From the IMG/VR virus record IMGVR_UViG_3300048592_000266, positions 1-20,927 of that record: DNA of 20,927 nucleotides; one strand, written 5' to 3'. Below the pieces are notes generated by a model. That model saw only the letters and a list, made by a program, of their open reading frames with translations, had not been told where the DNA came from and did no database searches. The position numbers and the translations under genes are program-made. The stretch's first letter is position 1. Each line of letters opens with the position of its first letter. Source of the DNA: a virus. This document shows, in pieces, positions 618 through 18,303 of the stretch.

Positions 618-1522
618 TACAGCTCCTCTATATTAACACTTGTCTTATATAGAGACAACACAGGGTGCTCTAAATCAGAAATATCCGTTAATTTTCCGTA
701 AATTTGATGGGATAATTCCTTATTATAGTCCTCACTGTTTTCAGGAAACAACGATATGAATAGCGGTATAGTTTTTCCGCATTTTTGAAACATTCTTAAA
801 CATTCGGCTCTATCTGTATCAGTAAGCCAATCTAGCTTAAACTTAAGAGTGTTATGTTTAGGGCCGTAAACTGAGATTATGTCGCCAGCTTCGGAGCGTT
901 TGTTAGTAGAGCTATCAACAACTCCAGTAGATAAACCATATGAAGTGTTATATTTAGGTGACCAATAGTTACCTACAATAAGAGCAGATGCCTCTATGTA
1001 CTTATCGGTATTATCTGCATCTACTATCTCTATCAGATAACTAGTACAAGCGACCGTATTAGCTAGAGGAATATATACTCTAGCGTACCCCGGTTTACCG
1101 TTTGTGTAGGGGGTACTACCTAGTTCGGTAGTACCCCACTGCCATGTACCTAAAGAGCCATATGGTGTTGCTATAACAGCAGTGGAATCTACCAATAGAG
1201 TTCCAGGCGTTGTAGCTACAGGATCAGCACCGCTACCGGTAGTAGGTGCAGTACCTGTAAAGCCGCGCACTCTAATAGTAGCAGTAGAGGTAATATTACT
1301 GCCAAATAGCACGAAAGTATCCAAAGCTGTAGGAGTACTAAAAGTTAACACTAAGTTAGCCTTGGTAGTAGCTTGTACCGTTGTAAGACTTCTCCATATA
1401 GCAGATTTTTTATCTGTTTTTAGATTAGTTACCGGAGTGCTAACAGCGGCACTAGACGATAGTAAAGAACTAGCCTGATGTACTTTATTATCATACACTA
1501 TTCTTAGATTATTTAGTGCCAT
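617..1522 (-). CDS. Minor tail protein with discoidin-like (F5/8C-like) N-terminal domain
   Basis: This 301-residue protein is not strongly named but resembles a recurring phage virion family. Residues about 1-180 look like a carbohydrate-binding beta-sandwich: an unfolding-state pattern NLRIVYDN at the start, then WRSLTT, NLVLTFSTPTALDTFVLFG, and the strand IRVRGFTG. The middle has EASALIVGNYWSP, and the C-terminal third (KLDWLTDTDRAECLRMF, then PLFISLFPE) is the part most conserved in the family as I recall it. The protein ends IEEL. No signal peptide or membrane helix is visible. The ATG follows the previous stop after 11 bases, with AAGG six bases upstream. G+C returns to the AT-rich backbone level here, so this gene belongs to the resident phage rather than to the neighbouring cassette. 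A tail-tip role in binding surface glycans is inferred. Confidence 0.6.
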   Translation of the reverse strand: MALNNLRIVYDNKVHQASSLLSSSAAVSTPVTNLKTDKKSAIWRSLTTVQATTKANLVLTFSTPTALDTFVLFGSNITSTATIRVRGFTGTAPTTGSGADPVATTPGTLLVDSTAVIATPYGSLGTWQWGTTELGSTPYTNGKPGYARVYIPLANTVACTSYLIEIVDADNTDKYIEASALIVGNYWSPKYNTSYGLSTGVVDSSTNKRSEAGDIISVYGPKHNTLKFKLDWLTDTDRAECLRMFQKCGKTIPLFISLFPENSEDYNKELSHQIYGKLTDISDLEHPVLSLYKTSVNIEEL

Positions 1523-1533
1523 ACAATACCTTA

Positions 1534-2166
1534 TTAATTATCCCAACTTATTGCGTCGATTTCCTCGACTGTCGCGGCCGCCTGCACTGCGTCGATCTTG
1601 TCGCGCAGCTTGACCAACAGCGTGCGCTCCAGCGACTTTAGGGCATCCCACAGGGCTCGCGCCTTCGCCGGTGTGAGCAGTTCGAACGTTCCGTCGGCCA
1701 ACGGGATCGGCACGTCAATCCACGTCCCGGCGTCCTCGACCATGGTCTTGAGCGCAAGATAGCGGGTCCACGAATCGGCGTCAGTTGGCGCGGTCTTGCC
1801 GCCCAGCGTGACGCCTGCCGTGCGCTCTGCGTTCCAGGCGGCGGCTAGCTCCTGATGTTTGCGTGAGCGCACGACTTTAATGTCTTTCGTCGGCGATGAC
1901 TCGACAGCGCCTTGGAGCGGGCCGCCGATCCCAGTGAGCGAACTGATGATCGCGGCAGGCAAGGCACCGACTCCCACTTCCGACAGCGCAATCGCCACGC
2001 GCTGACGCTCAGCGGCGAAACCCGTCGTCGCCGCCCCTATTGTCGGCCAGCTCGCCAGGTCCACAATCAACCGCGCATCCACGAGGTCGATTTCGACTCT
2101 CTCAATGCGATGCCACGCACCCGAACCGCCGCTTGGCAGAACCACATACCCTGAGAAATCTATCAT
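1534..2166 (-). CDS. DUF4376-type tail fibre accessory/assembly protein
   Basis: This protein has 210 residues when begun at the ATG at 2166. A GTG at 2184 would add six residues, but ATG at 2166 overlaps the TGA of the fibre gene as ATGA and is the better choice. From about residue 95 the sequence matches the DUF4376 layout: a helix with AAAWNAERTAGVTLGG, a middle with dispersed Asp and Trp, ADGTFELLTPAKARALWDAL, and the typical end AATVEEIDAISW. DUF4376 proteins are common beside tail fibre genes of proteobacterial phages and prophages, where they are often taken as fibre assembly or accessory proteins. The gene is about 60% G+C with GC-ending codons, unlike genes on its left. It appears to have travelled with the fibre tip upstream of it. 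The chaperone role is an inference from position and family. Confidence 0.68.
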   Translation of the reverse strand: MIDFSGYVVLPSGGSGAWHRIERVEIDLVDARLIVDLASWPTIGAATTGFAAERQRVAIALSEVGVGALPAAIISSLTGIGGPLQGAVESSPTKDIKVVRSRKHQELAAAWNAERTAGVTLGGKTAPTDADSWTRYLALKTMVEDAGTWIDVPIPLADGTFELLTPAKARALWDALKSLERTLLVKLRDKIDAVQAAATVEEIDAISWDN

Positions 2167-5100
2167 GCTATATACCCCAACCACAGGCGGATGTAGCCCG
2201 TGGAAATGATGTTTGATCCACTAGCGTCGGACGCGATCTCTACACCGATGACGGCCGCATCCTCACCGTAGGCGGAATAAGTCTTCGAGATCGCCACGAT
2301 CTTCTCGCTCGTGATCTGCGTCCAAGAGTCGTAGATACCGGTCCACGTCACGGCGCCCGAGCCCAAGATGCTAAGCTTGCTGAACCGCACGTAACGACCT
2401 GTGCCTACTCCGGCCGTTGTCGGATTCCACCAGTTCTGCGTGTAGGTCCACGACCCGGTCCCAACGCGCGAACCGAGAGTGCCATTGGTGTTGACCGATG
2501 CGCTGGCCGTCCGTGTCCCAGTGGTCGCGGCTACGTGCAATACGCCAACGAGCGGCATGGACGGCTTTGGACCAGCGTAGGTCGGCGACTTGATTTCGAG
2601 TTGGCTGCCGGTCCACCGCATATAGGCGTCGGCGCTGCCGATGTCCAGTCGAGGCGTGCCGCCGTTGTATTCGATCAGCCAGCCCGTGCCGGACCCGTAG
2701 GCCGTCTTACCACTGCGGAGCTTGCCGTTTGTCGACACCTGCATGTCGCCGATAAGCACGTTGCCTGCGACCTCAAGCACCCCGTTGGTATTCCAGCGCA
2801 GGAAGTACGTGCCGTTACCGATCTCGGCCCGCACCGTGCCGTCAGACAAGGTCTCGAACACGTAGCCGTTCGTGGCCCCGGCGAATACCTTGCCCAGTGA
2901 CTTGATGAGACCGCCCACGCCGGGGCTGCCTACGGTCAGGGATCCGGTGCTGGTGCTCAACGCCGCCAATGTGCCGATGGACGCAACCTTGATGTTGGCA
3001 AGGTCGATTGCGGCAGCCCCAATGTAGGTCGTCGCGTTCGCAGCCGTGATCTGGCTCAGGGTGGCAAAAGCTCCCTGTCCCGCAATTGCCTGCGCGGTCT
3101 TATTGGCCGTTATGTCACCGGCCGAAACCCACACGCCGCCCGACCGGACCTTCATGGTCCATGTACTGGAGTCATACCAGAGGTCACCGTTCACCGGCGA
3201 CACTGGAGCCGTCGTGCCGACCGTCAGTGCGTTGCGCGTTGCGTTCGTCTCTCCGGTGTAGCCCAGGCCACCAAGCGTGACTGTACCACCCCCTGCGCCT
3301 GAGAGCGCACCATCGCTGCTGATGGTGATGTTGCTGTTGAGGACCGTACCCGGTGGTGTGCCCACGAGGTTGTTCCAGGTCGCGGAAAGTCCGAGCCCGG
3401 CATCGTCGGTCAGTTGCGAGGTCGCGGTCGTAAGATTAGCCGCACTCTGCCATGCGCCAGCAACTCGGACCTTGGTTATGTTCGGCGTCACACTTGTGTC
3501 GACCCACACGTCACCGTTCACCGGTGACGTCGGCGCAGAGGACTGTCGGTAAACGATGTTCTTCGTCGCGTCGAGGGCTCCGGTGTAACCGAGACCACCG
3601 ATCGTCACCGTTCCGCCACCTGCACCGCTGAGCGTCCCGTCTGAGCTAATACTGATCGACGAGTTAGCGATACTGGATGCGGGTGTGCCGGTTAGCTGTG
3701 AGTAATTGACAGTTCCGCCACTGCTGAAGACGACTTGGTTGCTGCTGTTGTAAATAGAGAATGTGGTTCCATTCCATTCAGCTCTGGCACCCGCGGGATT
3801 TCCGAACCTCACCTTATATTGCCCGGCATCGTATCCTAAAAAGTAACCGGTGGTGCTTGAGAATGTCGTGCTTGGAGTGGAAACCTGACCTGCAGTACCC
3901 ACAGTCAAAGTGCCGTCAACCGTTAGAGAACCAGTGTTGACCGTCAACGCGGATAACTGTCCTACTTTAAATGCGCTTATGTATGGGGCATACCAAGTTA
4001 TTTCGAGAGTGTCCGGATCATATAAACCGTCAGTTTGCCAAAGCCTCTCCCCAGTTGCATACGTCGGAGGTGTGGTATACCAGACTACGCCGGGACTGAA
4101 AGAACCTGTTGCCGGTACACTATTAATTCCGCTGGAGGTTACGGAAGTGGTCCCCATGGCGGATACGGAAGATGCCGCATAAGCTCTCCTGGCGCTGACA
4201 CCATCACTACCTATTGTGCCGGCCGTACCTTGCTTAGACTTGCTGAAGGTTTGAACTTTGGTGAGAGAAAGATTGACACCATCAGTTCTGGTGTTGATCG
4301 TGTATGTGATCGATCCAGTATCGGCCGTCATCGCGGTCAAATTCGAAACTGAGGCGGCCGTACCCGAAACTGCTATGCTCCCGCTGGTGCTTCCGGAAGT
4401 TACACTGGAAGTCGTGAACGTTACTCTGAATCTACCATTTACTATTGGGTTTCCTGTTCCTGTTTCATATTGGAGGGCTGTCGTTCCACTATAAGCGTAT
4501 ATAAGAGTTCCAGACCCACTGAAATTTGGATTGGATCCGTCCGAATCGGAAGGTATGGTATGAGCTTCATTTGTGAGGATCGCCGTTCTGACATCAGTTC
4601 CATCAGCACCGTCACTAATTTTGGCAATTGTTAGAATATCCGATAGCGAGCCATCACCCATGAGAACGGCGATGGTTTTCGCGGTCATCGTACTTCCCGT
4701 GATGGTCACTGTATTCCCGGTACGTGACACGCCGGTGGGGACTGTACTGGAGAAGGCCCCACCGTCGACACTGTACTGCCAAACGCTGATCGTGGTTCCT
4801 TGAGACGTACCCGTGACAACCGCTGTTGTCGGTGTAGTAGCCCCACCGGCAGCCGGAACCGCCAATACTTGAGTAGTGGTGGTTAAAGATATATTGTTGG
4901 CAACCGTTCCATCTGCGCCCACATAAGCCACAGACCAGCTTATGATTTTCGTGAACAGTACTCCATCAACGGTGATCGGGACCGTAAGAACCCCGTTTTG
5001 AGTCACCAAAGCCGTCGTGACGTCTATCGTTATCACGGGAGCCGTCGTACCGTTGTTCGTGATCGAAGTGGTCAGTCCCGTCACCGCGCCCGTGATAGTC

Positions 5101-6812
5101 CCGACGGTGGCCGCAAACTGGGTAGAGCCTTTGTAAGCTTTTACGGTACTCGTTGTACTGCCGTTTATCGCCGCGTTCGTGGAGCCTGGGAAGATATGAC
5201 TCTCATTGCTGAGTAAGACCGTATAAGAATCAAGACCATCGACGCCATCGATTAGTCTGATAATGTTCACTGTATCGGTGAAAGTATCCCAAGTGGCCGT
5301 GATTGCTACTGAATTATTCGTTCCAAAATCGGCCTTGGACAATGTCCGTGTGGTCGCCGTTGGAAGACCTCCCAACGTTACGACAGGTACCGTACTCCAA
5401 GAAACGTCACCAGCGAGATTTTGGCCAGAAGCTGAGATCTCGATAGAATTAGGTGTTACTACACCGTCTTTATCTTCTTTGAAAGTTAGACTATTGGCAC
5501 TGACGGTAAGTATCTTAGCATCTGTTCCGCCAGATCCGTCGGTACCCTGATAACCGATCGGAGAAACTGTTGCATTACCCCAAAAAAACCCTGTAGTTGT
5601 CTCATCCGCCAGGGCTGTTATTCGAATAATAGCGGCATACAAGGTCTCGCCCGGAATGCCGGTTCCTGGTTCTACGGTCCAGCCGGACGGAAGAATATCA
5701 TAAGTGCCTGTAGACCAATTATAGGTAGCACTGCCGGCCGATGTCGGCGCCGGAGGCACGGACCATTGGTATGCCTTGATTTCAGCTGTTTGGTATCCGG
5801 GAACCCCATCCGCACCATTTGCTGAAACAGCACTAATGACAAAAGGAGCGACCCATGTAACCGTAGTGGTTACTGCGGTGGCCACATCTGTAACAGCTTT
5901 AGATACAGTCCATAATCTAATACCAGATATGCCCGGATTAGCCGGTGTTGTAACTTCCCAACTACCACCACCAGTAGGAGTATACGCACTAGACACTCCT
6001 GTTGACCAAGTATACGTTGAAGTACCACTAGGGGCAATAGTAGGCTCCGTGGTGCTCCATTGGTATAATGTTGCCGTAGCGTACTTATTAGCAGACGTGC
6101 CTTCAATACCTGCCTTTGCTTTAGTAATAGTATATTGCTTATCAATAGTAACTATACTATTGTAAATAGCTCTAAACGTAACTGTACCGGTATCTGCGGA
6201 CATACTGTCTATAGTATATACTCCGCTAGTAGCACCTATGCTGGCCGTAAGACCGGTAGAGTCGATAATACTGTAAGCTACTGAGCCTGTATTAGTTTTT
6301 TCTGTAGTACCCTCAAACACTCTAAAAGTACCACCTGCGGGCGTGAGCCCACCGACCGGGATTACTCCAGCACTGTCTGTTGCAACTAAGTATGTTTCTC
6401 TGGTGAGATAGCCTGAAACAGCAGACTCCACTTCTTGGTTGTTAAACACCGTGTACGTAGCTTGAGCAGTAGGCTTGTTAGCTTGAGAAACTGTTAACCT
6501 GAACTTAACAAAAGTACTTCCAGTATAAATACTATCATATAAAGTAGAAGTTACTACTAAAGTATCTGTAACTTCCCCCGTAATGATAGACCAAGCATCA
6601 TCATTATTATCTAGCAAATACTCCCACATATACGTAGGCATAGTATAGATATTGCCTTCTATACCAGTTAAGATAATAGAAGAAGGAGTATATTCATTAC
6701 TAATATCAATATTGAAAGTAGAGGCAGTAGAAGTGATAGTAACTCCGTAAGTTTCTACTCTTATAGGGCTACTTTCTAAAGCTTTTTGAACTTCGTGAGT
6801 TGTTACTGCCAT
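2163..6812 (-). CDS. Central tail fibre / host-recognition protein (J-like)
   Basis: A 1549-residue fibre. Residues about 1-900 are a chain of beta-rich, Thr/Ser-rich Ig-like modules separated by short collagen-like linkers such as GADGT, DGADGTD and GVDGLD. Near residue 950 comes LSALTVNTGSLTV, a short segment typical of the J-like fibre shaft, followed by a fibre repeat (YFLGYDAGQYKVRFG, about 987). Residues about 1049-1121 and 1158-1230 are a tandem duplicated module containing SSDG-x-LSGAGGG and SPVNGD-x-W. More shaft repeats follow at about 1317 and 1380, the latter with WLIEYNGGTPRLDIG. The last 130 residues, ending LWLGYIA, are the likely receptor-binding tip. The ATG overlaps the hub stop (TAATG); GGAG lies 11 bases upstream. 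Base composition shifts twice inside the gene. Receptor contact is inferred from architecture and position. Confidence 0.78.
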   Translation of the reverse strand: MAVTTHEVQKALESSPIRVETYGVTITSTASTFNIDISNEYTPSSIILTGIEGNIYTMPTYMWEYLLDNNDDAWSIITGEVTDTLVVTSTLYDSIYTGSTFVKFRLTVSQANKPTAQATYTVFNNQEVESAVSGYLTRETYLVATDSAGVIPVGGLTPAGGTFRVFEGTTEKTNTGSVAYSIIDSTGLTASIGATSGVYTIDSMSADTGTVTFRAIYNSIVTIDKQYTITKAKAGIEGTSANKYATATLYQWSTTEPTIAPSGTSTYTWSTGVSSAYTPTGGGSWEVTTPANPGISGIRLWTVSKAVTDVATAVTTTVTWVAPFVISAVSANGADGVPGYQTAEIKAYQWSVPPAPTSAGSATYNWSTGTYDILPSGWTVEPGTGIPGETLYAAIIRITALADETTTGFFWGNATVSPIGYQGTDGSGGTDAKILTVSANSLTFKEDKDGVVTPNSIEISASGQNLAGDVSWSTVPVVTLGGLPTATTRTLSKADFGTNNSVAITATWDTFTDTVNIIRLIDGVDGLDSYTVLLSNESHIFPGSTNAAINGSTTSTVKAYKGSTQFAATVGTITGAVTGLTTSITNNGTTAPVITIDVTTALVTQNGVLTVPITVDGVLFTKIISWSVAYVGADGTVANNISLTTTTQVLAVPAAGGATTPTTAVVTGTSQGTTISVWQYSVDGGAFSSTVPTGVSRTGNTVTITGSTMTAKTIAVLMGDGSLSDILTIAKISDGADGTDVRTAILTNEAHTIPSDSDGSNPNFSGSGTLIYAYSGTTALQYETGTGNPIVNGRFRVTFTTSSVTSGSTSGSIAVSGTAASVSNLTAMTADTGSITYTINTRTDGVNLSLTKVQTFSKSKQGTAGTIGSDGVSARRAYAASSVSAMGTTSVTSSGINSVPATGSFSPGVVWYTTPPTYATGERLWQTDGLYDPDTLEITWYAPYISAFKVGQLSALTVNTGSLTVDGTLTVGTAGQVSTPSTTFSSTTGYFLGYDAGQYKVRFGNPAGARAEWNGTTFSIYNSSNQVVFSSGGTVNYSQLTGTPASSIANSSISISSDGTLSGAGGGTVTIGGLGYTGALDATKNIVYRQSSAPTSPVNGDVWVDTSVTPNITKVRVAGAWQSAANLTTATSQLTDDAGLGLSATWNNLVGTPPGTVLNSNITISSDGALSGAGGGTVTLGGLGYTGETNATRNALTVGTTAPVSPVNGDLWYDSSTWTMKVRSGGVWVSAGDITANKTAQAIAGQGAFATLSQITAANATTYIGAAAIDLANIKVASIGTLAALSTSTGSLTVGSPGVGGLIKSLGKVFAGATNGYVFETLSDGTVRAEIGNGTYFLRWNTNGVLEVAGNVLIGDMQVSTNGKLRSGKTAYGSGTGWLIEYNGGTPRLDIGSADAYMRWTGSQLEIKSPTYAGPKPSMPLVGVLHVAATTGTRTASASVNTNGTLGSRVGTGSWTYTQNWWNPTTAGVGTGRYVRFSKLSILGSGAVTWTGIYDSWTQITSEKIVAISKTYSAYGEDAAVIGVEIASDASGSNIISTGYIRLWLGYIA
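3121..3668 (-). repeat. Tandem 327-bp module duplication inside the fibre gene
   Basis: Two copies are offset by exactly 327 bp (109 codons): one ends at 3341 and the other at 3668. The 10-base string ctccggtgta occurs at 3251 and 3578, and tcaccgttcaccgg occurs at 3184 and 3511. The protein copies share SSDG-x-LSGAGGG, GGLGYTG, SPVNGD-x-W and KVR. The bases between matching segments have diverged, so this is an old in-frame duplication rather than a recent one. Confidence 0.82.
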
Positions 6813-8481: not shown

Positions 8482-11400
8482 TTACGCCCCGAATTCTCTA
8501 GGTATATCAAAGAAGTCGGATTTTACAAATGCTGCAGTGGAGTCGTTAACCGCTTCTGCGATAGTAGTGCTACTACTTACTGTAGCTTCTACAACATGTC
8601 CTGTCTGCTCCACTTGTTCTATACGTAGAGCCTCTAGTTGTTGTTCGATCAATTTCAGTTGAGCCACTAATACGTCGGTGTTGTTATTGTTTGTTACAAT
8701 CAGTTCTTGAATGTTTAGATTTGCAGCTTCAAACCCAAGCGACGGCGATGACAGCGCTTCTATAGCTGAATTAAACATTGACTCAGCTAGCGAAGGTAGT
8801 GATTCTTTTATAAGTTGATCAATAGTTAGCGAAGTAGCCGCTCCGCCAGCAGCTACAGAACCTGCTAATGCTGCAGACTCCTGTGCTGCTGCCACCCGTG
8901 CTTGAATAGGAACCAGTTCCTCTAATAGTTGTGCTGTTGTCTTTGTATTTGTATCAATTAAATTTAGGATTGTGGTATTAGTCTCTAATACTGCAAGCTG
9001 TTGTTCTGCTTCTGTTAGCTGCTCTTCAAGAGCCAAACCTGTAGTTTCTAAAATAGAAAATACGTAGTTAAAGTCTTGAGTGTAAGCGCTGGAACTAGCA
9101 TACAGAGTTCTAGAAGCTTCTAGAAACTGAGAAGTTACGGCAGGTAATTTTTCAATTGCTGCGTTTTTGGCCTCTTTCTCTGCATCCGTGGTAGCTATAC
9201 CCATAGCTATAGCGGCTACTTCTTGTGCTTGTCTTTTAGCTTCCTCGTATTTCTCACCCGGAGTAAGCACAGTTAGGTCGCCTAACAGTAGTGCGTCCTT
9301 AGCATCCTTAAGCGTAGTAATAAATGATTTTGTACGACTTATAAGATCTCTTAGTTGAGAACCTTCTTCTTCGTACGAACTCGACAGTTTCTCTTTTAGT
9401 GCAGCCTCGTCCTCTAGTGCATAAATATATAATTGAGCTGGAACTAGCTTTTCATCGAGAGCTGCTAATTCTTGTTCTCTTGTAATAGCTAAAGCTTCTT
9501 CAGCTTTACCTACTAGCTCATATATTCTCTTTTCTTGTGCCGCTCTAGCGTCCAGTAGTGTTTTCTCGTCTTCTAGTAGATAGATTCTAGATAATAACGC
9601 TGCATCGGAATCTGATAGCGCGTTTAACTCTTTCTGTCTAGTAATATTAGTCGCTTCTTGCACTTGGCCTGAAGCAGTTAATAGTCTTACGTAAAGATCC
9701 TGAGTTTTAGCTGCATCTTGTGCTGCATAAACTAATTCTGTAAGAACTCTTTGCTCGTCTGTTAGAGTGCGAAGCTCTAGATCCCTAGTAATCATTAAAG
9801 CTTCATAACTAAAGCCCAGGGCTGCGATTACAGCGGCTTCTCTATTTAATAAATCTAATCTATCTTGTAGTTGCCAAATGTACTTCTGTCCTGGTATTAA
9901 GGCCTCGTCTAACTTACTTAGTTCGTCTTCCCTCTGTCTTGCTAGAGCTTCAGAGGTTTTGCCTTCTAATTTTAGTATCTCAATTAGCTGTTTTGTTTGG
10001 GCTTCGCGCAAAGCCTCAGCGGATAACATCTCGCGGGTCTCTGGGTATACCATAGCAAAAGCTTCGGAAATATCCATCATACTATTAAATAAAGACCTGC
10101 CCGATTCGGTGGTAAGATCTATAGCCTGAACTACCGCAGCAAACTCCTCTCTGGTATCAAGCATTTCGGAATCAAAACCCAGGTTTTCTAGATTTTCTGT
10201 AAGCCTTTGTTTGACTGGTTCCAGCTGTTCTGCTGTGGTTAAGAAGTTATCTTTAAAGAAAGATGTTTTACTTACAAACTCCTCTAGTCCACCCGATATT
10301 TCTGCCATAGATTCAGTAATTGCTATACTTGATTCTGACAGAATATCTCCAGTATTTATAGCAGATATTCCAATACTAAATAGAGCAGTGTTAATCTTAT
10401 CATTAGTATCAATTACACGAAGGGTAGTTTCCAACATGCCTTCGCCAAATTCTCTGTACTGTTCCAAGCTTTTAAATAACCCTGTAGCAGTAGTGTCCAG
10501 AATATTACCAATAATTGCGTTTAATTCTTTTTCTAGGTCTTCACCTTTTAAATCACGTAAGCTAGCTAACTGGTCTATATTAATCTTGGCTAAACTAGAA
10601 TAAACGTCTTCTACACTCATTCCCAGTCTGGTGCCAGTTTCTACGAACAATTCTGCAGCATTTTCAAATACCGCACTCAACTCGTTAGTGATAGAAGTGT
10701 CTAAGTCTTTAAATTCAGTTTTAATTTTAGTACTGGTGCTTGAACCTATGCCTAGAAGACCACTACTCTTCTTCTTTACCTTCACCGTTTCATAGATGTC
10801 AATAGCAGAGGAAGTAGCACTGTTAATCAAATCAAGGAAAGTTCCCTGGAATCTAATACCCGCATCTTCGATAGTCTTGGTTGTTGATGAGCCAAACAGT
10901 CCACTTATTCCACTTGTGCTGGTACTCTCTTTTGTACCGAAAGCAGAACCCGTACGTAATCCAGGTATAGAGTAAATTCCTTTAGAGGCGTCACCTATAG
11001 AGTTATCAATACTTTCAAGTAACATCACCATTTTATTAGAATAGCTAAGTCCTTTAATAGTATTACTGTTTAGTATATCTATAGAATTTGCAATAGACTC
11101 AGACTTGGCTTCTGCGTCGCCAAAGACGCCTCCACCGTTCTCAACCTTTTTACCGTTAACCCAGGACATTCCTGTACCTTGAGTTTCCTGCCTATCTTCA
11201 GCACTATACCCAGCTTTTGATACTGAGGGTCCTTTACCGAATAGACTTTTAACTATAGCTGCAACAGCAGCTGCTGCTGCCACGTTAAGCGGGAATGGTA
11301 CACTAGCTAATGTTTTTGATACCGCAGCAGCACCATCAGCAAGTCCTCTAGTCATTGAGCCTGCTACACCAGTAGCAGTTTTAGCAGCATCACTAGCCAT

Positions 11401-14400
11401 TTCTTGAACGTTTCTGGCTAGTTTCTGAATATGCATAAACTTTTCTAGGGAGTCTAAAGCTTTGAAAGCAACTGTCTTTTCTTTAAATAGTTTCTTACCG
11501 GAGTTTGCTATTGCAATGTCTCGATCTATTTCTAGATTTTTACGTTTTTCGTTATACTCCTCTTCTACAGCCATTTTCTCAGCTATAGTATTTTTCGCGT
11601 CTTTAGCGGCCTGTTCTTGGTTATTTAACTTTTCTGTTTTTTCAGCAAAATCAAACATAGTTTGAGCTACTGACCCAATAGCAGCACCTAAATCTCCAAA
11701 AGCACCCTCCAAGCTTTCTATAATATTAGCTTGTGTAGCCAATTCTTTAGTAAGAATTGCTTGCTCTAAAGCCTGGTCTTTCGTGTCCTCAATGGCAGCT
11801 TTTCTAAATCCTGATAGTTTTAACTCTAAGCCTGCCTGTTTAAAGTATTCAGAGTTAACTCTAGCTATTTGATCTTTCAAAGCACTATCTGCTTGAGATC
11901 CTGAAGTTACTGTTTTTCGCTTATTTTCTAGCGCTGCTACTGCACGAGCTCTAGTGTTCTCTATAGCAGCTAATTTGCTTGCAAGTGTTAATTCTTCTCG
12001 TTGAGTAGCTATTTCGGCCTTTTTAATAGCAAGAGTGTCTGCAGCTATATTGTTTAAAGATGCTTGTGCATCCATACGAGATTCGATAAGGTCGAGTTCT
12101 GCATTTGTACCAGTGCTTGTTCTCTCAGCGTCGGCCTGTACTCTAGCTGCTTCAGCGTCTGCTAAAGCTTGAAGTCCGGTTAGACGAGCAGCCAGGTACT
12201 CTCTCTCATCATTAGCCTGTTTTTCGCTATATACGCTAGCAGATAGCATAAGTTGATTTCGTATCTCTTCCTGCTGTATTTCTGCAGATTTCCTAGCTAC
12301 GGCACTTGTATTTCTATCATCTATAACAGCCTGAAGTTGGCTATATTTAGATACTAGATTTAACTGCTCTACGTTAAGGGCGTTTACATTCTTAGCTATT
12401 TCAAGTTCCCTAACTCTTAGAGCTAATACTTCATTGTACTCACCTACAGCAGACACATCTTGTTTAGCACTGCCAAGTTTGGCATCAAGTCCAGGATTTG
12501 TTGCGTTGATACCGTCAATCGTGTCTTTATATGACCTAGCAATAACATCTAATTTGTTTTGTAATTCTTTAACTACTACAGTTGCAGAAATTTTAGCTAG
12601 TTGAGCGGTTCTGCCGACGTTACGTTGCATCCAATCCTGCAGAATAGCAGCAGCTGCCTTGTCGACTTCCGTAACTCCGACACTGGGGTCAGAGCCTTGA
12701 CTTCCTAAAGTTTTAGCTCTATTAAAGCCATCGGCGGACCTCATTATTTCTCTAGCTTTACTAATTCCCTCTAAAGTGTTGTCTAAAGTTTTTATAAGGT
12801 TTTCTTGCCCTGGAGTATTCTCCAGTGACTTACGCTTAGCTAACAGATTTGACTCCTCCATGGTCAGTGTTAAATCTGCTAGGGCGTTACTATTCGCATA
12901 CTGAGAATTAATTAGCTCTTTCTGTAGTTCGGCTTCTTCTCTTATATTGCTCAGGTCTTGGGCGTTAGTATCCACTCCGAGATTCTTGAGAATAGAAGAG
13001 ATGCCCTTACTAATAGTTAAAGCAGCTTCTCTTAAAGACTGATCTAGTCCGCGTAGTAATAGCGCATTGCCTTTCTCAACGAAAGCTGCTCCCACATTAG
13101 CGAACTCTTTTATCTTACTGTTGATATTATTAAGAGCAGTAGCCTCTTGCATTCTAAGCATAGCAGCTTTCTTTTCGAATGCTTTAGCTTGGAATCCGTC
13201 ACTACTAATACCACTGTTTTTAGATTCGTTTTCTGCGTCTCTAATTTTCTTTCTTACAGCGTCTAGTTCCCCTGACAGTCTGTCTAGTTCTTTACTAGAC
13301 AGAGCCAAATCTTTTGCCATATTTGGAGGCAGAATACTTAACGCTTCAAGATTTTTAGACGTCTCCTTTAACATATTAAGAGCGTTTATAGGATCTTGCA
13401 GCGCTGCTGTTATTTCTTTCCCTGCAGAATATGCACTTATTCCCATTTTACTAAATGGATCAGTGGGAGTTAGTTTGGCATTACTAGACTTTACCTCGTC
13501 TGCTAAAGCCTTAAGGGCTTCTTGGCCACTTTTCAGTCCGGAAGCTATTTGTTGGGATTCTTTATCTACTTCTTTAAGAGCGGCCGCTAGTTCTCTACCA
13601 CTTTTGGCTAGTGCAGGATCTGTAAGACTATCTAAATATTTCTGTACTTCTTTTGCATTCTCTAAATCTATATCGGCACCTAAAATACTTTGTAAGCTCT
13701 GTCTAGCCTTCTCCCTCAAAGCGGGATTCTCTAAAGCTTTGAAACTAGATGCTACTGCATTTGCTAGTCCTTGGCTGAGCTTTTCTGAAGCACTATCTAT
13801 AAAGGGCAGTAGGTCTATGATTCCGTCTACAACCTTATCCCAAGCACTTTCAGCCTTTTGAAGATTTTCAAAAGCCCTAACTGAAGTATTAACAGCTTCT
13901 GTCAAACTGCTCATAGCGTTGCTCATAGCAATGGTGCTATTAATACTAGATTGGTCGACTAGATCCTTATTTCTAATGTTATCTAATGTTGCAGACACGT
14001 TATCTACAGAACTTTCGATACTGTCAACAGCAGCATTAAATTTATCTGCCTCTTTGGCGGAAGTGCTGAACCATTTGTTTAAAACTTGGAAAGCAGCTAC
14101 AGCTATACCAATGTAGAAGAATAGAGACCCTAGAGACGCAAGAAGGGTGCCTGCTGCGGAGGCAGCAAGCCTTAGGGTTCCAGATACTCTGGTAACGCCC
14201 GCGTTAAACGCAGACATTTTCTTTGTACCTTCAGCAAATTTTTCTCCAGTAACATCGATGCCGTCACGAGCCTTAGCAATATTAGCGTTCATGTCTCTAA
14301 AAGACTGAACAAAGCCCTTCTCTGGTGCGTCTTGAACAGCAGCGTTAACAATACTAATTCTTTGTGATTTAGCCGCAGCTCTGTCTGCAATACGCTCCTG

Positions 14401-15870
14401 TTGCTTTTCCAGGCTTAGATACTGCCTTAGTGACTCAGTTTTTCTAACAATCCATCTCTCGTTTCTAGCTTCTTGTTTTTCTAAGTTAGTACGAGCATTT
14501 AGGTTAAGCTGAAGCTGCTGGTTAAGTCTTCTAATTTCTTCCGCCTCTAACTGGGCATTAGCTGCACCTACTGGGGTCTTAAGCTTAGCAGAGGCGGCCT
14601 CTCTAAGTCTGGCCTGCTTTTCTAGCGCGTCAATATTTTCTTGGGTTACGTCCTTTAAGTCACCCGGTAACAGATTCTTAGTTGTTGGAGTAATGGCTCT
14701 ATTAGATGCCGTTCTCATTTTCTCTATAGACTTGGTAGCCTCATCAGCACTATCTTTTAACTGCTTAGTACTCTTTTCAATAGGCTCTAGAAATCTGTTT
14801 TCAGAAAAGATAGCAGCGGACTTACTACGTGCTCTTGCGGTTTCAATAGCAGTTTTTCTAGCTGCTGCATCCGCCTCTTCTAGATTGGCTTTCCACATGC
14901 TTAAAGCAGGGATGGCTTGACGTAGTAATATAGTAGCTAAGCCACCTATAGCCGTGGCAAGGGCCACCGGACTAGAGTTTAGTAGCGAGAGTACTGGGCT
15001 TAATACAGTATTAATAACCCCACCGACCTCTACGGCTAGGGTCTGGATGGAGGCTAACATCTTAGCATATGGGTTTACGGTGAGCTCAATAGCTCCGAAT
15101 TTCTTTTCACCCTGCTCAAGAACAGCGTTAGCAAAAGCCTGTCTACGCTCAAAATCTGTCAACGCCGTAGATGATTTTCCTATTGATGTGGCGTAGGCTC
15201 TGGTAGCGTCGTCAAGGCGTACCATAATACCAATTTCATCCAACAGTTCTGGTTCTAGTTTAGTAATACCACGTGTTAGACGACTAATAGCGTCTGGCAT
15301 AGATACACCAAGAGCTTGGGAAGCCTGTCTAGCTACGTTACCAAGTCTAAGAATATCTTTAGCCGCAAGCCCACCTGCCGAAGCGTTGGCTGTAGCTCTC
15401 AGTGCATCTTCTAAAGAGATGGCACCGTCTGTAGCTACTTGAAGATCTTTAGCAAGACTACCTAGGTTTCTACCGCTTGCAGCACCTAATTGATCAAGAC
15501 CCTTACGAAGGTTATCTAGATCTGCTGCTTTTGATAGCGCTGTAAAGGCTGCGCTGGCAGCGAAGATATTAGCAGCGAAAGTAGCGTATAGTTGAACAAG
15601 ACCACCCATGCCTCGAGCCTGTTTGGCGAAGTCCCGGCCTTCGGCGCCGGTACCGGGCCCAATGCTTCGAGTTATATTAGAAGCATCGGCGGCAGCTCTC
15701 CCTGCAGAAACTTGTGCACGAGCAGCAGCTACAGGCGTAGGTGTGCGACCTGAAGAGCCTGTGGAAGCTTCGTTCAGGTTTCTTCTAAGTACTTCAGACT
15801 TTTTAACTAAAGGGTCTAACGTACCTTTATCAGATGCAATAATATCTACTTTTACTGTTTTATCCGCCAT
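8482..15870 (-). CDS. Tape measure protein
   Basis: A 2462-residue protein, very long for the family. The N-terminal 300 residues are typical: a basic start, a helical Ala-rich stretch, then SMPDAISRLTRGITKLEPEL. Most of the rest is charged coiled coil. Hydrophobic segments lie near residues 560-603 (LLASLGSLFFYIGIAVAAF) and 1520-1541 (NVAAAAAVAAIV), the kind that enter the host membrane at DNA delivery. Residues about 1953-2160 form four approximately 50-residue repeats. The end carries a pattern common in proteobacterial phage tape measures, TPGEKYEEAKRQAQ then FLEASRTLYASSSAY. At about 0.15 nm per residue the tail would be near 370 nm. No lysozyme or peptidase motif was recognised. A consensus promoter and a weak GAGAG ribosome site precede the ATG, and a strong terminator follows the stop. 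Confidence 0.95.
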   Translation of the reverse strand: MADKTVKVDIIASDKGTLDPLVKKSEVLRRNLNEASTGSSGRTPTPVAAARAQVSAGRAAADASNITRSIGPGTGAEGRDFAKQARGMGGLVQLYATFAANIFAASAAFTALSKAADLDNLRKGLDQLGAASGRNLGSLAKDLQVATDGAISLEDALRATANASAGGLAAKDILRLGNVARQASQALGVSMPDAISRLTRGITKLEPELLDEIGIMVRLDDATRAYATSIGKSSTALTDFERRQAFANAVLEQGEKKFGAIELTVNPYAKMLASIQTLAVEVGGVINTVLSPVLSLLNSSPVALATAIGGLATILLRQAIPALSMWKANLEEADAAARKTAIETARARSKSAAIFSENRFLEPIEKSTKQLKDSADEATKSIEKMRTASNRAITPTTKNLLPGDLKDVTQENIDALEKQARLREAASAKLKTPVGAANAQLEAEEIRRLNQQLQLNLNARTNLEKQEARNERWIVRKTESLRQYLSLEKQQERIADRAAAKSQRISIVNAAVQDAPEKGFVQSFRDMNANIAKARDGIDVTGEKFAEGTKKMSAFNAGVTRVSGTLRLAASAAGTLLASLGSLFFYIGIAVAAFQVLNKWFSTSAKEADKFNAAVDSIESSVDNVSATLDNIRNKDLVDQSSINSTIAMSNAMSSLTEAVNTSVRAFENLQKAESAWDKVVDGIIDLLPFIDSASEKLSQGLANAVASSFKALENPALREKARQSLQSILGADIDLENAKEVQKYLDSLTDPALAKSGRELAAALKEVDKESQQIASGLKSGQEALKALADEVKSSNAKLTPTDPFSKMGISAYSAGKEITAALQDPINALNMLKETSKNLEALSILPPNMAKDLALSSKELDRLSGELDAVRKKIRDAENESKNSGISSDGFQAKAFEKKAAMLRMQEATALNNINSKIKEFANVGAAFVEKGNALLLRGLDQSLREAALTISKGISSILKNLGVDTNAQDLSNIREEAELQKELINSQYANSNALADLTLTMEESNLLAKRKSLENTPGQENLIKTLDNTLEGISKAREIMRSADGFNRAKTLGSQGSDPSVGVTEVDKAAAAILQDWMQRNVGRTAQLAKISATVVVKELQNKLDVIARSYKDTIDGINATNPGLDAKLGSAKQDVSAVGEYNEVLALRVRELEIAKNVNALNVEQLNLVSKYSQLQAVIDDRNTSAVARKSAEIQQEEIRNQLMLSASVYSEKQANDEREYLAARLTGLQALADAEAARVQADAERTSTGTNAELDLIESRMDAQASLNNIAADTLAIKKAEIATQREELTLASKLAAIENTRARAVAALENKRKTVTSGSQADSALKDQIARVNSEYFKQAGLELKLSGFRKAAIEDTKDQALEQAILTKELATQANIIESLEGAFGDLGAAIGSVAQTMFDFAEKTEKLNNQEQAAKDAKNTIAEKMAVEEEYNEKRKNLEIDRDIAIANSGKKLFKEKTVAFKALDSLEKFMHIQKLARNVQEMASDAAKTATGVAGSMTRGLADGAAAVSKTLASVPFPLNVAAAAAVAAIVKSLFGKGPSVSKAGYSAEDRQETQGTGMSWVNGKKVENGGGVFGDAEAKSESIANSIDILNSNTIKGLSYSNKMVMLLESIDNSIGDASKGIYSIPGLRTGSAFGTKESTSTSGISGLFGSSTTKTIEDAGIRFQGTFLDLINSATSSAIDIYETVKVKKKSSGLLGIGSSTSTKIKTEFKDLDTSITNELSAVFENAAELFVETGTRLGMSVEDVYSSLAKINIDQLASLRDLKGEDLEKELNAIIGNILDTTATGLFKSLEQYREFGEGMLETTLRVIDTNDKINTALFSIGISAINTGDILSESSIAITESMAEISGGLEEFVSKTSFFKDNFLTTAEQLEPVKQRLTENLENLGFDSEMLDTREEFAAVVQAIDLTTESGRSLFNSMMDISEAFAMVYPETREMLSAEALREAQTKQLIEILKLEGKTSEALARQREDELSKLDEALIPGQKYIWQLQDRLDLLNREAAVIAALGFSYEALMITRDLELRTLTDEQRVLTELVYAAQDAAKTQDLYVRLLTASGQVQEATNITRQKELNALSDSDAALLSRIYLLEDEKTLLDARAAQEKRIYELVGKAEEALAITREQELAALDEKLVPAQLYIYALEDEAALKEKLSSSYEEEGSQLRDLISRTKSFITTLKDAKDALLLGDLTVLTPGEKYEEAKRQAQEVAAIAMGIATTDAEKEAKNAAIEKLPAVTSQFLEASRTLYASSSAYTQDFNYVFSILETTGLALEEQLTEAEQQLAVLETNTTILNLIDTNTKTTAQLLEELVPIQARVAAAQESAALAGSVAAGGAATSLTIDQLIKESLPSLAESMFNSAIEALSSPSLGFEAANLNIQELIVTNNNNTDVLVAQLKLIEQQLEALRIEQVEQTGHVVEATVSSSTTIAEAVNDSTAAFVKSDFFDIPREFGA
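9390..10010 (-). repeat. Four coiled-coil repeats in the tape measure C-terminal region
   Basis: Four successive units of about 50 residues share the pattern leucine-rich helix, Gly-Lys or Gly-x-x-x-Glu-Ala, then Thr-Arg-x-x-Glu-Leu, then a Leu-Asp-Glu turn and Tyr-x-x-Leu-x-Asp. Clear copies contain GKTSEALARQREDELSKLDE, EALMITRDLELRTL, QEATNITRQKELNAL and AEEALAITREQELAALDE. Similar units occur in other phage tape measures, where gain or loss of copies changes tail length. Confidence 0.8.
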
Positions 15871-15932: not shown

Positions 15933-15961
15933 ATTATAGCATTCAACCTCACCAATGTCAA
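15933..15961 (-). promoter_or_regulatory. Perfect consensus sigma-70 promoter for the tape measure gene
   Basis: On the minus strand TTGACA (15956-15961) and TATAAT (15933-15938) match the consensus at all 12 positions, with an ideal 17-base spacer. Transcription should begin near 15926, giving a leader of about 55 bases. It lies between the chaperone terminator and the tape measure ATG, so the tape measure can be transcribed on its own by host RNA polymerase. Confidence 0.85.
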
Positions 15962-15983
15962 TGAGCAAATTTTTTGTAGACAC

Positions 15984-16016
15984 AAAAAAGCCCACCTTAT
16001 TTAGAGGCGGGCTTTT
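15984..16016 (-). terminator. Intrinsic terminator overlapping the end of the chaperone gene
   Basis: On the minus strand the 5' arm (AAAAGCCCGCCT), the loop holding the TAA stop, the 3' arm (AGGTGGGC) and a six-base U-run form a strong hairpin with one G-U pair. The last residues, EKPAS, are encoded by the 5' arm, so coding and termination signals share bases. A second weaker hairpin of A/T pairs (15970-15989) overlaps the U-run. Confidence 0.88.
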
Positions 16017-16775
16017 CCCTAGAAGCGTTTAGTACACTTTTTCGTTTATTATCAATTTTGTTGATAATATCTAAATAAAATTTACGTTCAACTTTTTCGA
16101 TATCGTAAATCTCAAATATAGTACCTATAGTACTTATATCTTTGCCTAAGTATCTACCGTTCATGGTATCTACATCGTCTCTTAGAGTATTATAAATACT
16201 AAAAGAGTATTGGATTTCTACAGGTAGATCTTCAAATTCTACTGGAGTATTTTCTTCTGATGGTTCTTCACCAAAAGCTTCGCAAGCCTGGTAGTACATT
16301 TCCTTTGTCATTCCTACTTTGGCATTTTCAAAGTAGGAATGTAACATACTATCTATTAAGGCTTGCTGTTCTTCGTAAAATTTGACAGCTCTGTAACAGT
16401 CTCGCTAACGAACGAGTCAAAACTTGAAGATTCTTTCATTAAGAATAAGGCATTTTCAGAACTAAACTCTAGTTCTGCGTTAGGGTCATTTTCCCCTAAC
16501 TCCACAGGAGCTAGCTGCTCTACGTATGATAATTTAAGACCCTCCCAACCTTTAACAGCTGCTTCTACGTACAGTTTAAGAAACAACTGGTCGTCTAAAT
16601 CATCTACTACTTGACGACTTTTATAAGATTGTTTTGTGGCTTTCTTACGAATATTTACTAAAGTCTCTCTTGACATAAATGAGAGATTGACCTTAAATCC
16701 GTCGAATCCTGGAAAATCTACTGTAACAGTCTTGCTGGGGGCCAGCATTGACTTTAGTGATAAACTAGCTTTCAT
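15997..16775 (-). CDS. Tail assembly chaperone, long frameshifted form (GT type)
   Basis: Translation begins at 16775 with the short form and moves to the -1 frame at the A AAT TTT site (16377-16383), giving a predicted 259-residue protein: 133 residues from the first frame and 126 from the second. The second frame is open across the site and reads FYEEQQALIDSMLHSYFENA in continuity. Its only in-frame ATG (16347) has no ribosome site, so independent translation is unlikely. In lambda and many siphophages the G and GT proteins bind the tape measure and recruit tube subunits, and their ratio is set by the shift. The C-terminal extension is acidic in its first half and Lys-rich at its end (KRKSVLNASREKPASK). 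Position between the tube and tape measure genes supports the call. Confidence 0.85.
16309..16341 (-). repeat. Perfect 13-bp hairpin downstream of the frameshift site
   Basis: Arms 16309-16321 and 16329-16341 (cattcctactttg and its exact complement) flank a seven-base loop. On the mRNA the stem begins 35 bases after the slippery heptamer, inside the second chaperone frame. That spacing is longer than the usual 5-9 bases for a stimulatory structure, so its role is uncertain. An exact stem of this length inside coding sequence is nevertheless striking. Confidence 0.8.
16356..16775 (-). CDS. Tail assembly chaperone, short form (G type)
   Basis: This 139-residue protein is the unshifted product. 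It has the usual layout of siphophage chaperones: an N-terminal beta segment (KTVTVDFPGFDGFKVNLSF), then SRETLVNIRKKATKQ, then YVEAAVKGWEGLKLSYV, and an acidic helix ending SSSFDSFVSETVTEL. The stop TAA lies about 18 bases after the slippery site, so most ribosomes would end here. The ATG is preceded by AAAGGA at 11 bases, and an intrinsic terminator for the tube gene lies upstream. I see no good promoter in between, so it may depend on readthrough of that terminator, which would lower its level relative to the tube protein. Confidence 0.88.
   Translation of the reverse strand: MKASLSLKSMLAPSKTVTVDFPGFDGFKVNLSFMSRETLVNIRKKATKQSYKSRQVVDDLDDQLFLKLYVEAAVKGWEGLKLSYVEQLAPVELGENDPNAELEFSSENALFLMKESSSFDSFVSETVTELSNFTKNSKP
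16377..16383 (-). other. Programmed -1 frameshift site A AAU UUU
   Basis: In the zero frame the codons are TCA AAT TTT, so the heptamer fits the X XXY YYZ rule with X=A, Y=T and Z=T. After slippage both tRNAs re-pair (AAA, TTT) and the -1 frame stays open for 126 further codons. Location near the 3' end of the first chaperone frame is exactly where lambda-type phages place this signal. Confidence 0.85.
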
Positions 16776-16814: not shown

Positions 16815-16844
16815 AAAAAGAGAGGTGGTGATCAAGCCACCTCT
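16815..16844 (-). terminator. Intrinsic terminator after the major tail protein gene
   Basis: An 8-bp stem (16821-16828 with 16837-16844, AGAGGTGG and CCACCTCT) with an eight-base loop begins 10 bases past the tube gene stop. On the minus strand it is followed by CTTTTT. It probably limits expression of the chaperones relative to the abundant tube protein. Confidence 0.82.
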
Positions 16845-16854
16845 GTTAACCTAT

Positions 16855-18297
16855 TTAGACTGCTGCGAAGTAACGAATACGAATATCGTTAGTTCCAGCA
16901 ATGTCGTAGGTGTTATTTAAAGCATTGTGCCCTTGCGCTGTGAAGTTAATTGTGGTAGAAATAACATCAGCTGTTTCTACTGTAGGTACCTGAAGTAGTA
17001 CCCCCGGCATTTGTGCTTCTACTCGTGTAGCATTAGCTGCTCCACCGATAGCAATTTCCGTAAAGAACTTGGTTTCGGAAGCGTTAGCGGTAAGAATATC
17101 GCTTAACAGCTGGGCGGTAGCATTAGCACCTACACGTAAGTATGCTGTTACGTTACCGCTGATTGAACGAGATCCTGTGAAGTATCCGATAGGCTCGTTA
17201 ACCACACCAAGGTTACTTGGTGTTACGTAACTAACATTATTGGCAATAGTTAAATTACCGCCGGTAATAGCAATATTATATGAAGTGCCGGCACCTCCAA
17301 TATCGGCCTTAAGCTGCATTGTCGATAGTTTGTTGGTAATATAGTTAGCTCCAACAATACTTAAAGGAGAAGCTACGGTACCTGTTGCTAACCCTGCTCC
17401 ACCAAATACTGCAGGTGTGGCTGTAGAAATAGTAGCTCCAGAGATATAATTAAGCTTTGTACCCTTAACAGTCCAGGCTACGGTAGCAATACCGTCTAGT
17501 GAGAAGTCGATAGATGCTTGGTCAACAACGCAGTTGTCAATAACGTATACCGCACTGTCAACTAGGAAAACCATACCGAATTTCAGTAGCTGGTTTTTGT
17601 TGGATGGGGCTGAGGTTACTTGAGCAAACGGAGCGGTTCCACCGTTCGTCGCATGAGTTGTCCAAGCCTTGCTAAATAGTTTTGTGGTTGTACCACTTAA
17701 CGTAATAGTTCCTGCAGCAGGTGGATATAGGTATTTTACTGTAATACTGGTAGCTGCACCCGAGGCAGGGGTTCTATCCGTAACCACTACTGGTGTGTTA
17801 AACGCCTGTGATACACCAGCAGTTGCTGAAGTAACACCTTGTAGTGTGTATACACCGCCGATAGGGACGTCTACAGAGCAAGCAGAAATAACTAGAGTAC
17901 CAGTACCCGCTGTGTACACGCCGGTAGGGCTTCCACCACCAATAGCCGTACCAGCCTCACTGAATGCGGTGTCGCCAAATAGAGCGTTCCACAGATACTG
18001 CTCTTCTGCAACAACGTCAGTGCTTAGCTTTGGTCGCAGATAGGTTGAGAATGTAATGTCTACCGGGTCTAGGGTAACGTTGAAAGCACGCTGACCGCGA
18101 ACGGGAGCTGTACCTGCTTCAGAAATCTGGATGGTAGTCTGTTGAGTTGACTGAGAAAAGCTAAACCCATCTAATACTTTAATTTCAAAAGTATTGGTGT
18201 TTGACATAGTGGCGCCACTTCGTGCTACAACACCAGTATCAGCATTCACGTTAGTAGTGAAGAATAATCTACTGTTACGTACTAAGTTAAATGACAT
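16855..18297 (-). CDS. Major tail tube protein
   Basis: A beta-rich, Thr/Gly/Ala-rich protein of 480 residues when begun at ATG 18297 (MSFNLV). An ATG two codons upstream (18303) leaves only one base after the AAGGA ribosome site, while the chosen ATG leaves seven. The N-terminal part has FEIKVLDGFSFSQ and NVTLDPVDITFSTYLRP, a tube-type pattern. Residues about 130-210 look like an inserted Ig-like domain with GVYTLQGVT and ITVKYLYPPAAG. The C-terminal third repeats the tube-like pattern (YNIAITGGNLTI, then GSRSISGNVTAYLRV). At this length it resembles the two-domain tube protein of phage T5 rather than the short lambda type. Position between terminator and chaperones, with its own intrinsic terminator, fits the most abundant tail protein. 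Confidence 0.82.
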   Translation of the reverse strand: MSFNLVRNSRLFFTTNVNADTGVVARSGATMSNTNTFEIKVLDGFSFSQSTQQTTIQISEAGTAPVRGQRAFNVTLDPVDITFSTYLRPKLSTDVVAEEQYLWNALFGDTAFSEAGTAIGGGSPTGVYTAGTGTLVISACSVDVPIGGVYTLQGVTSATAGVSQAFNTPVVVTDRTPASGAATSITVKYLYPPAAGTITLSGTTTKLFSKAWTTHATNGGTAPFAQVTSAPSNKNQLLKFGMVFLVDSAVYVIDNCVVDQASIDFSLDGIATVAWTVKGTKLNYISGATISTATPAVFGGAGLATGTVASPLSIVGANYITNKLSTMQLKADIGGAGTSYNIAITGGNLTIANNVSYVTPSNLGVVNEPIGYFTGSRSISGNVTAYLRVGANATAQLLSDILTANASETKFFTEIAIGGAANATRVEAQMPGVLLQVPTVETADVISTTINFTAQGHNALNNTYDIAGTNDIRIRYFAAV

Positions 18298-18303
18298 AGT
18301 CAT

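Follow-up and report, generated by a model that had tools for sequence, protein, structure and literature searches.

The window analysed here, the whole 20,927-base virus record IMGVR_UViG_3300048592_000266 of IMG/VR, carries a tail module on its minus strand with genes for a head-tail adaptor, a neck-like protein, a tail terminator, a major tail protein and a tape measure protein, as well as two overlapping small frames (ORF1 and ORF2) and further genes (Table 1). The order is that of the lambda type (G/GT), with the two chaperone frames placed between the tail tube gene and the tape measure gene. The window covers a 20.9-kb piece of its genome. A DNA-level search of phages with the region gave no match; ORF1, ORF2 and the tail tube protein matched 903, 907 and 903 phage records respectively, all below 60% identity, and among 22 phage-record regions placed by family 19 belong to the Demerecviridae and three are labelled only 'Viruses'.

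An intrinsic terminator found by scan precedes ORF1 (window 16821-16844, minus strand) and a second, read by eye, its loop being too long for the scan, lies over the ORF2 stop codon (about 15986-16016, minus strand), so that the chaperone gene appears to form a transcription unit by itself; phage KEY has an annotated terminator at the same place. Between ORF2 and the tape measure gene stands a perfect sigma-70 consensus promoter (15933-15961, minus strand; TTGACA, 17 nt, TATAAT, with TG before the second hexamer). An Rfam search returned nothing beyond a sub-threshold Thr_leader match over the ORF2 terminator (15981-16089, minus strand; 36.7 bits against a gathering threshold of 55), which is probably due to the shape of the terminator only. 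Elsewhere in the window the GC content reaches 0.60-0.63 at 1801-3600, compared with 0.36-0.47 outside 1201-6000; this stretch falls in the 3' part of a 1549-residue gene and in the next frame, and may be an import of a receptor-binding part.

On the minus strand the slip region reads ...GAG CTG TCA AAT TTT ACG AAG AAC AGC AAG CCT TAA, where AAT and TTT are zero-frame codons of ORF1, so that the X_XXY_YYZ heptamer A_AAU_UUU stands in phase with six codons between TTT and the ORF1 stop. ORF1 and ORF2 overlap by 49 nt, the -1 frame is open through the heptamer, and slippage there would join 133 residues to 126 in a 259-residue fusion with the junction NF|YEEQQ; the phase, the open -1 frame, its 126 codons and the length of the fusion are as the original prediction had them. 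Both frames and the heptamer recur in an independent contig, L001, of 99% identity, and this speaks against a sequencing error. Both halves belong to a known chaperone family: the PHROG_313 'Tail assembly chaperone' profile, 258 positions long, is matched by ORF1 at 22-142 and by ORF2 at 175-246, and so already covers both frames. The predicted fold of ORF1 (pLDDT 84.9) is matched best among solved structures by YqbN (3klu) with Z 5.9 at 4.4 A over 90, followed by the HK97 tail assembly chaperone (2ob9) with Z 5.0 at 4.3 A over 84; the next row stands at Z 2.6, and the two leading scores are modest, if on topic. Tape measure chaperones of T5-like phages are among the best hits of ORF1 in BFVD (E 8.8e-13), and the ORF2 model found no informative match among solved structures.

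Table 1. Genes, slip site and predicted RNA helices around the chaperone frames of the window
Feature	Position in window	Strand	Basis
Major tail protein, upstream neighbour of ORF1	16855..18303	-	phrog_3575, E 1.2e-57
ORF1, short tail assembly chaperone (G-like part), 139 aa	16356..16775	-	phrog_313, E 1.7e-19; predicted fold
Slippery heptamer A_AAU_UUU	16377..16383	-	sequence; same heptamer in 131 of 169 distinct -1 loci listed
Spacer from heptamer to first helix, 10 nt	16367..16376	-	sequence, fold prediction
Outer helix, 5' arm, GCAAGCCU	16359..16366	-	z -5.50; 0 of 200 shuffles as stable
ORF1 stop TAA	16356..16358	-	in internal loop directly past outer 5' arm of hairpin
Middle helix, 5' arm, 9 nt, containing candidate ORF2 start AUG 16347-16345	16343..16351	-	fold prediction
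Inner 13-bp helix, 5' arm, CAUUCCUACUUUG	16329..16341	-	fold prediction
Inner 13-bp helix, 3' arm, CAAAGUAGGAAUG	16309..16321	-	fold prediction; 7-nt loop 16328-16322
Middle helix, 3' arm	16292..16300	-	fold prediction
Outer helix, 3' arm, AGGCUUGC	16282..16289	-	fold prediction
ORF2, -1 frame continuation (T-like part), 126 codons + stop	15997..16377	-	phrog_3914, E 2.9e-21; phrog_313 positions 175-246
Tape measure protein, 2462 aa, downstream neighbour of ORF2	8482..15870	-	phrog_3779, E 1.1e-51

Downstream of the heptamer the RNA is predicted to fold into a hairpin of three stacked helices (8, 9 and 13 bp, 30 bp in all; 16366-16282), a putative stimulatory structure that was absent from the original prediction and whose first helix begins after 10 nt, within the distance of about 5-10 nt expected of a -1 signal. 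Its predicted energy is -36.6 kcal/mol, compared with -18.5 (sd 3.3) in dinucleotide shuffles, and when the ORF2 codons were redrawn synonymously only one of 500 sequences was as stable. Covariation gives this particular hairpin no support, the sole close relative (L001) differing at unpaired sites only.

Relatives were collected by protein searches of IMG/VR contigs and, along with regions of phage records, were read together with the window. The viral-contig scans kept the best 80 of 521, the best 80 of 574 and 80 of 193 matches, so that the sample is made of near relatives. ORF1 was found in 272 of 273 stretches and ORF2 could be assigned a frame in 269, which merge into 210 distinct loci once identical stretches are joined; the counts omit the window itself (L019), one locus with no ORF1 stop in reach and two (L228, L236) whose contig ends before ORF2. 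Of the 210 distinct loci listed, 169 have ORF2 in the -1 frame and the other 41 have it in the +1 frame. An in-phase heptamer with an open -1 frame is present in all 169 of the former (A_AAU_UUU in 131, A_AAU_UUC in two, G_GGA_AAC in 36), all 41 of the latter carry UUU_CGU (36) or UUU_CGA (5) at the slip site, and no listed locus is without a signal that fits its frame. The original prediction took the loss of the heptamer from relatives retaining both frames as evidence against slippage; literally, 77 of the 210 distinct loci listed are of this kind (79 if A_AAU_UUC is counted as a loss), but they do not refute it, since each has another frame-fitting signal, G_GGA_AAC or A_AAU_UUC at -1 loci and UUU_CGN at +1 loci. 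Such a pattern leaves a splitting of one gene by assembly or sequencing error with a negligible probability: the window is a single contig, taken as given, and the arrangement is identical in L001 and common to all 169 distinct -1 loci listed, so that the relatives exclude it.

Ten further phage records, some of them near copies of earlier ones, gave an in-phase UUU_CGN and a +1 frame in nine. The tenth, AhSzq-1, has an in-frame TAG under the standard code, and with TAG read as Gln it shows CGA UUU CGA and a complete +1 ORF2. The late genes of AhSzq-1 (L275, NC_047949.1 90629-92838; L284:12795-12869) look recoded: there are six in-frame TAG codons in the ORF1 stretch and four in ORF2, all read through cleanly as Gln; the record leaves the chaperone frames unannotated and gives the portal, capsid and tape measure genes in fragments; and ARAGORN reports a tRNA, named tRNA-Pyl, whose CUA anticodon is the one that an amber suppressor would have.

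Clustering at 80% identity gave 78 clusters in the -1 group and nine in the +1 group, 87 in total. All 78 -1 clusters have an in-phase X_XXY_YYZ in the overlap, compared with 34.6 expected when the ORF1 amino acids are kept and the codons redrawn. The expectation is high because E-N-F favours AAAT TTT, and the heptamer alone is therefore modest evidence; we put more weight on its conservation under differing preceding residues, the first A being retained whether the codon is Glu (GAA), Ser (TCA) or Thr (ACA), and on the hairpin. At the +1 slip site all nine clusters have UUU as the Phe codon and CGU or CGA as the Arg codon; elsewhere in ORF1, UUU accounts for 33 of 68 Phe codons, and CGU or CGA for 17 of 46 Arg codons.

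The same clusters bear on whether the frames encode two separate proteins, ORF2 being started independently or by termination-reinitiation at the AUG at 16347. This AUG, the sole early ORF2 ATG near the junction, lies 8 nt beyond the ORF1 stop, near enough for reinitiation to be possible; it has none of AGGA, GGAG or GAGG upstream, in agreement with the original claim that ORF2 lacks a ribosome site of its own, and it sits inside a predicted helix. Across the family an ATG precedes the conserved domain of ORF2 in 21 of 87 clusters and is missing from 66, and a Shine-Dalgarno-linked start is found there in one of 87, compared with 77 of 87 for ORF1. In the T5-like phages, the stretch from the slip site to where ORF2 is usually annotated to start shows 302, 2 and 951 differences at +1-frame codon positions 1, 2 and 3 (256 overlapping pairs); its annotation is intergenic, yet it looks coding. 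On these grounds we reject an independent start of ORF2, which we regard as very improbable.

A hairpin past the heptamer recurs among the relatives. Among the 64 clusters that form the main A_AAU_UUU clade, 61 contain an unbroken helix (at least 7 bp) whose start is 5-13 nt past the heptamer, compared with 15% in synonymous redraws, and in 60 the 5' arm contains or directly adjoins the stop codon of ORF1. Helices of at least 7 bp also occur in 24 and 27 of the 64 clusters in control windows 150 and 180 nt downstream; helix counts alone are therefore not specific, and it is the z scores and the covariation that are. Over 40-nt windows (32 of the 64 clusters sampled) the mean z is -3.91 directly past the heptamer and between -1.2 and +0.2 in 21 others. 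RNAalifold on the 64 rows together yielded no consensus structure (0.0) because two hairpin registers are mixed in them, and we analysed apart a 41-row clade and its 21-row sister, which make up 62 of the 64 rows (L125 and L162, in neither clade, were excluded), with structures read off clade members, a choice that favours those clades in the slide control. The 41-row clade has a covariation of 0.245, compared with 0.109 when shuffled, and 41 double-change cells compared with 14.9, none of 500 shuffles being as high; its pair 23-36 occurs as six standard types (CG, AU, GC, UA, GU and UG), and column 22, a base of the stop codon itself (G or A), changes with its partner (GC 32, AU 7, GU 2). In the 21-row clade the 5' arm is the same but pairs with a closer 3' arm across a 7-nt loop (covariation 0.216 compared with 0.107), a register that fails in the 41-row clade. 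Compensatory change in the main-clade hairpin is clear from these alignments.

The hairpin could instead be a site of RNA processing or protein binding next to a real heptamer at which slippage goes unstimulated. The family can do without a strong hairpin, since none is found locally in the G_GGA_AAC clade or at most +1 loci: after G_GGA_AAC, in the clade nearest to the window, it is mostly absent (mean z 0.09, n=11 clusters), and the +1 clusters have a weak one (mean z -1.17, n=9). Against this, the main-clade helix starts 5-10 nt past the heptamer, the usual distance of a stimulator, in all but one of the 63 clusters whose helix has at least 6 bp (64 clusters in all), z drops only right past the heptamer, and the pairs covary; we judge unstimulated slippage unlikely, and a stimulatory role for the main-clade hairpin the better reading. 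A link between hairpin strength and heptamer (a hairpin with A_AAU_UUU, a weak one with G_GGA_AAC) was suggestive and was dropped given the strong 110-nt structures of two G_GGA_AAC rows, L269 and L224. Slippage of the polymerase rather than the ribosome would yield mixed mRNAs from the A/T-rich AAATTTT, yet runs of three or four equal bases are short for it, the G_GGA_AAC and UUU_CGN relatives have no such run, and the distance of the hairpin and the phase are ribosome-like; transcriptional slippage is accordingly highly improbable.

A tree of both halves with the slip-site columns removed (53 of the 87 clusters) divides the rows into a -1 and a +1 group (support 99/94) with a single change of direction, and an 87-row tree agrees. 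Within the -1 group the window falls in a 14-row clade (100/99) with 11 G_GGA_AAC and two A_AAU_UUC rows, apart from the other A_AAU_UUU rows, and a single clade of 31 A_AAU_UUU rows is rejected (AU p 0.007). We do not claim that the heptamer of the window is convergent with that of the main clade: the window is basal in its clade, so that retention from a -1 ancestor explains A_AAU_UUU equally well, and retention followed by later exchange for G_GGA_AAC would be sufficient. Midpoint rooting nests the -1 group next to L221, a +1 row, without setting the ancestral direction. L221, there the sister of the whole -1 group and so a place to look for the direction switch, is with L222 and L225 an uncultured +1 contig, the three clustering apart from the cultured phages examined.

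The +1 group comprises T5 and all other cultured Demerecviridae examined. In the T5-likes (T5, Sw2, Shivani, Sugarland) both halves are homologous to and alignable with those of the window and the slip codon occupies the same Phe column, whereas ORF2 lies in the +1 frame and the site is UUU_CGU/A (ACU UUU CGU in T5 itself, L194 and L279). Since -1 and +1 loci share this Phe codon, homologous tail chaperones would shift there in opposite directions, and for the T5 branch we predict that the fusion arises when the Phe tRNA slips by +1 at UUU_CGN, from UUU to UUC. As the original prediction expected of automatic annotation, the fusion is mostly missed in cultured relatives: a joined product is annotated in one of 22 phage-record chaperone regions, and two are unannotated there. 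The exception, the Sw2 record MH631454.2, has a joined 'Tape Measure Chaperone Frameshift Product' spanning 835 nt, in keeping with a +1 shift. A Shivani chaperone of 277 residues in BFVD points to a +1 fusion as well (the terms frameshift and chaperone are absent from the Shivani paper), so that the +1 fusion is not wholly unrecorded.

The closest known system is lambda, whose gpG/gpGT tail assembly chaperone frameshift was reportedly the subject of Xu, Hendrix and Duda in 2004. The lambda heptamer is G_GGA_AAG, unlike the A_AAU_UUU of the window, and the family of the window also differs from lambda in its covarying hairpin, which in the main clade includes the stop codon of ORF1. The accessible text of PMC5009743 describes the lambda shift, and together with that of PMC3498833 indicates that -1 chaperone shifts are widespread, that phage Mu shifts by -2 and that halovirus HSTV-2 probably shifts by +1. 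Mu and HSTV-2 likewise show that chaperone frameshifts need not be -1; they are, however, distant phages, whereas here the direction differs inside one alignable family at one homologous codon. The +1 site of influenza A PA-X, UCC_UUU_CGU in the accessible part of PMC3498833, resembles our proposal for the T5 branch in UUU_CGN and in P-site slippage from UUU to UUC, but differs in its unrelated gene, its eukaryotic ribosome and the codon before UUU. In the accessible portions of PMC6256483 the T5 and Sugarland chaperones are reported to lack any predicted frameshift signal, and neither the +1 site of T5-likes nor the -1 clade of the window is described in those of PMC3498833, PMC5009743, PMC10885494, PMC6256483, PMC8718954, PMC10721106, PMC3711429, PMC7660901, PMC5313236 and PMC4342426. 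In the openly accessible literature searched we found no description of the conserved UUU_CGN site, of the -1 branch with its covarying hairpin or of the one-codon change of direction.

Considering the frames, the heptamer and its conservation, the compensatory hairpin of the main sister clade, the lack of an ORF2 ribosome site and the chaperone-family homology of both halves, we hold it to be very probable that ORF1 and ORF2 form one tail assembly chaperone gene in which -1 slippage at A_AAU_UUU yields a minority fusion. A -1 frameshift joining the two frames is thus the best reading, as originally proposed, and from its sequence the signal in the window is of the lambda G/GT type, with slippage, its rate and product ratio, and the binding roles and partners being what we infer. 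Most ribosomes would translate ORF1 to its stop and release the 139-residue chaperone, while a minority would stall at the hairpin, AAU occupying the P site and UUU the A site; both tRNAs would then re-pair one base upstream (on AAA and UUU), as is assumed of tRNAs in the host, and translation would resume in the -1 frame to give the fusion. By analogy with lambda G/GT, the short form may coat the tape measure protein, and the rare fusion may recruit the tail tube protein through its ORF2 part.

For the family as a whole we consider it likely that one orthologous, alignable lineage of chaperones flipped its frameshift direction (+1/-1) at the same Phe codon, by exchange of neighbouring codons (UUU CGN versus A AAU UUU ACN) and a compensating change in the relative frame of ORF2, and that the -1 branch then exchanged heptamers (A_AAU_UUU, A_AAU_UUC and G_GGA_AAC) and hairpin registers with the fusion kept. 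For the model phage T5, annotation gives the tail chaperones as two proteins, and the accessible text of PMC6256483 states that they are without a frameshift signal; the uncultured relatives indicate that the family very probably shifts frames, and point to UUU_CGU as the T5 site. Direction, heptamer and hairpin would all have turned over while the fusion stayed, a natural experiment on the replacement of recoding signals without loss of the product, and if this history is true, selection acts on the two-product output and not on the way of slipping.
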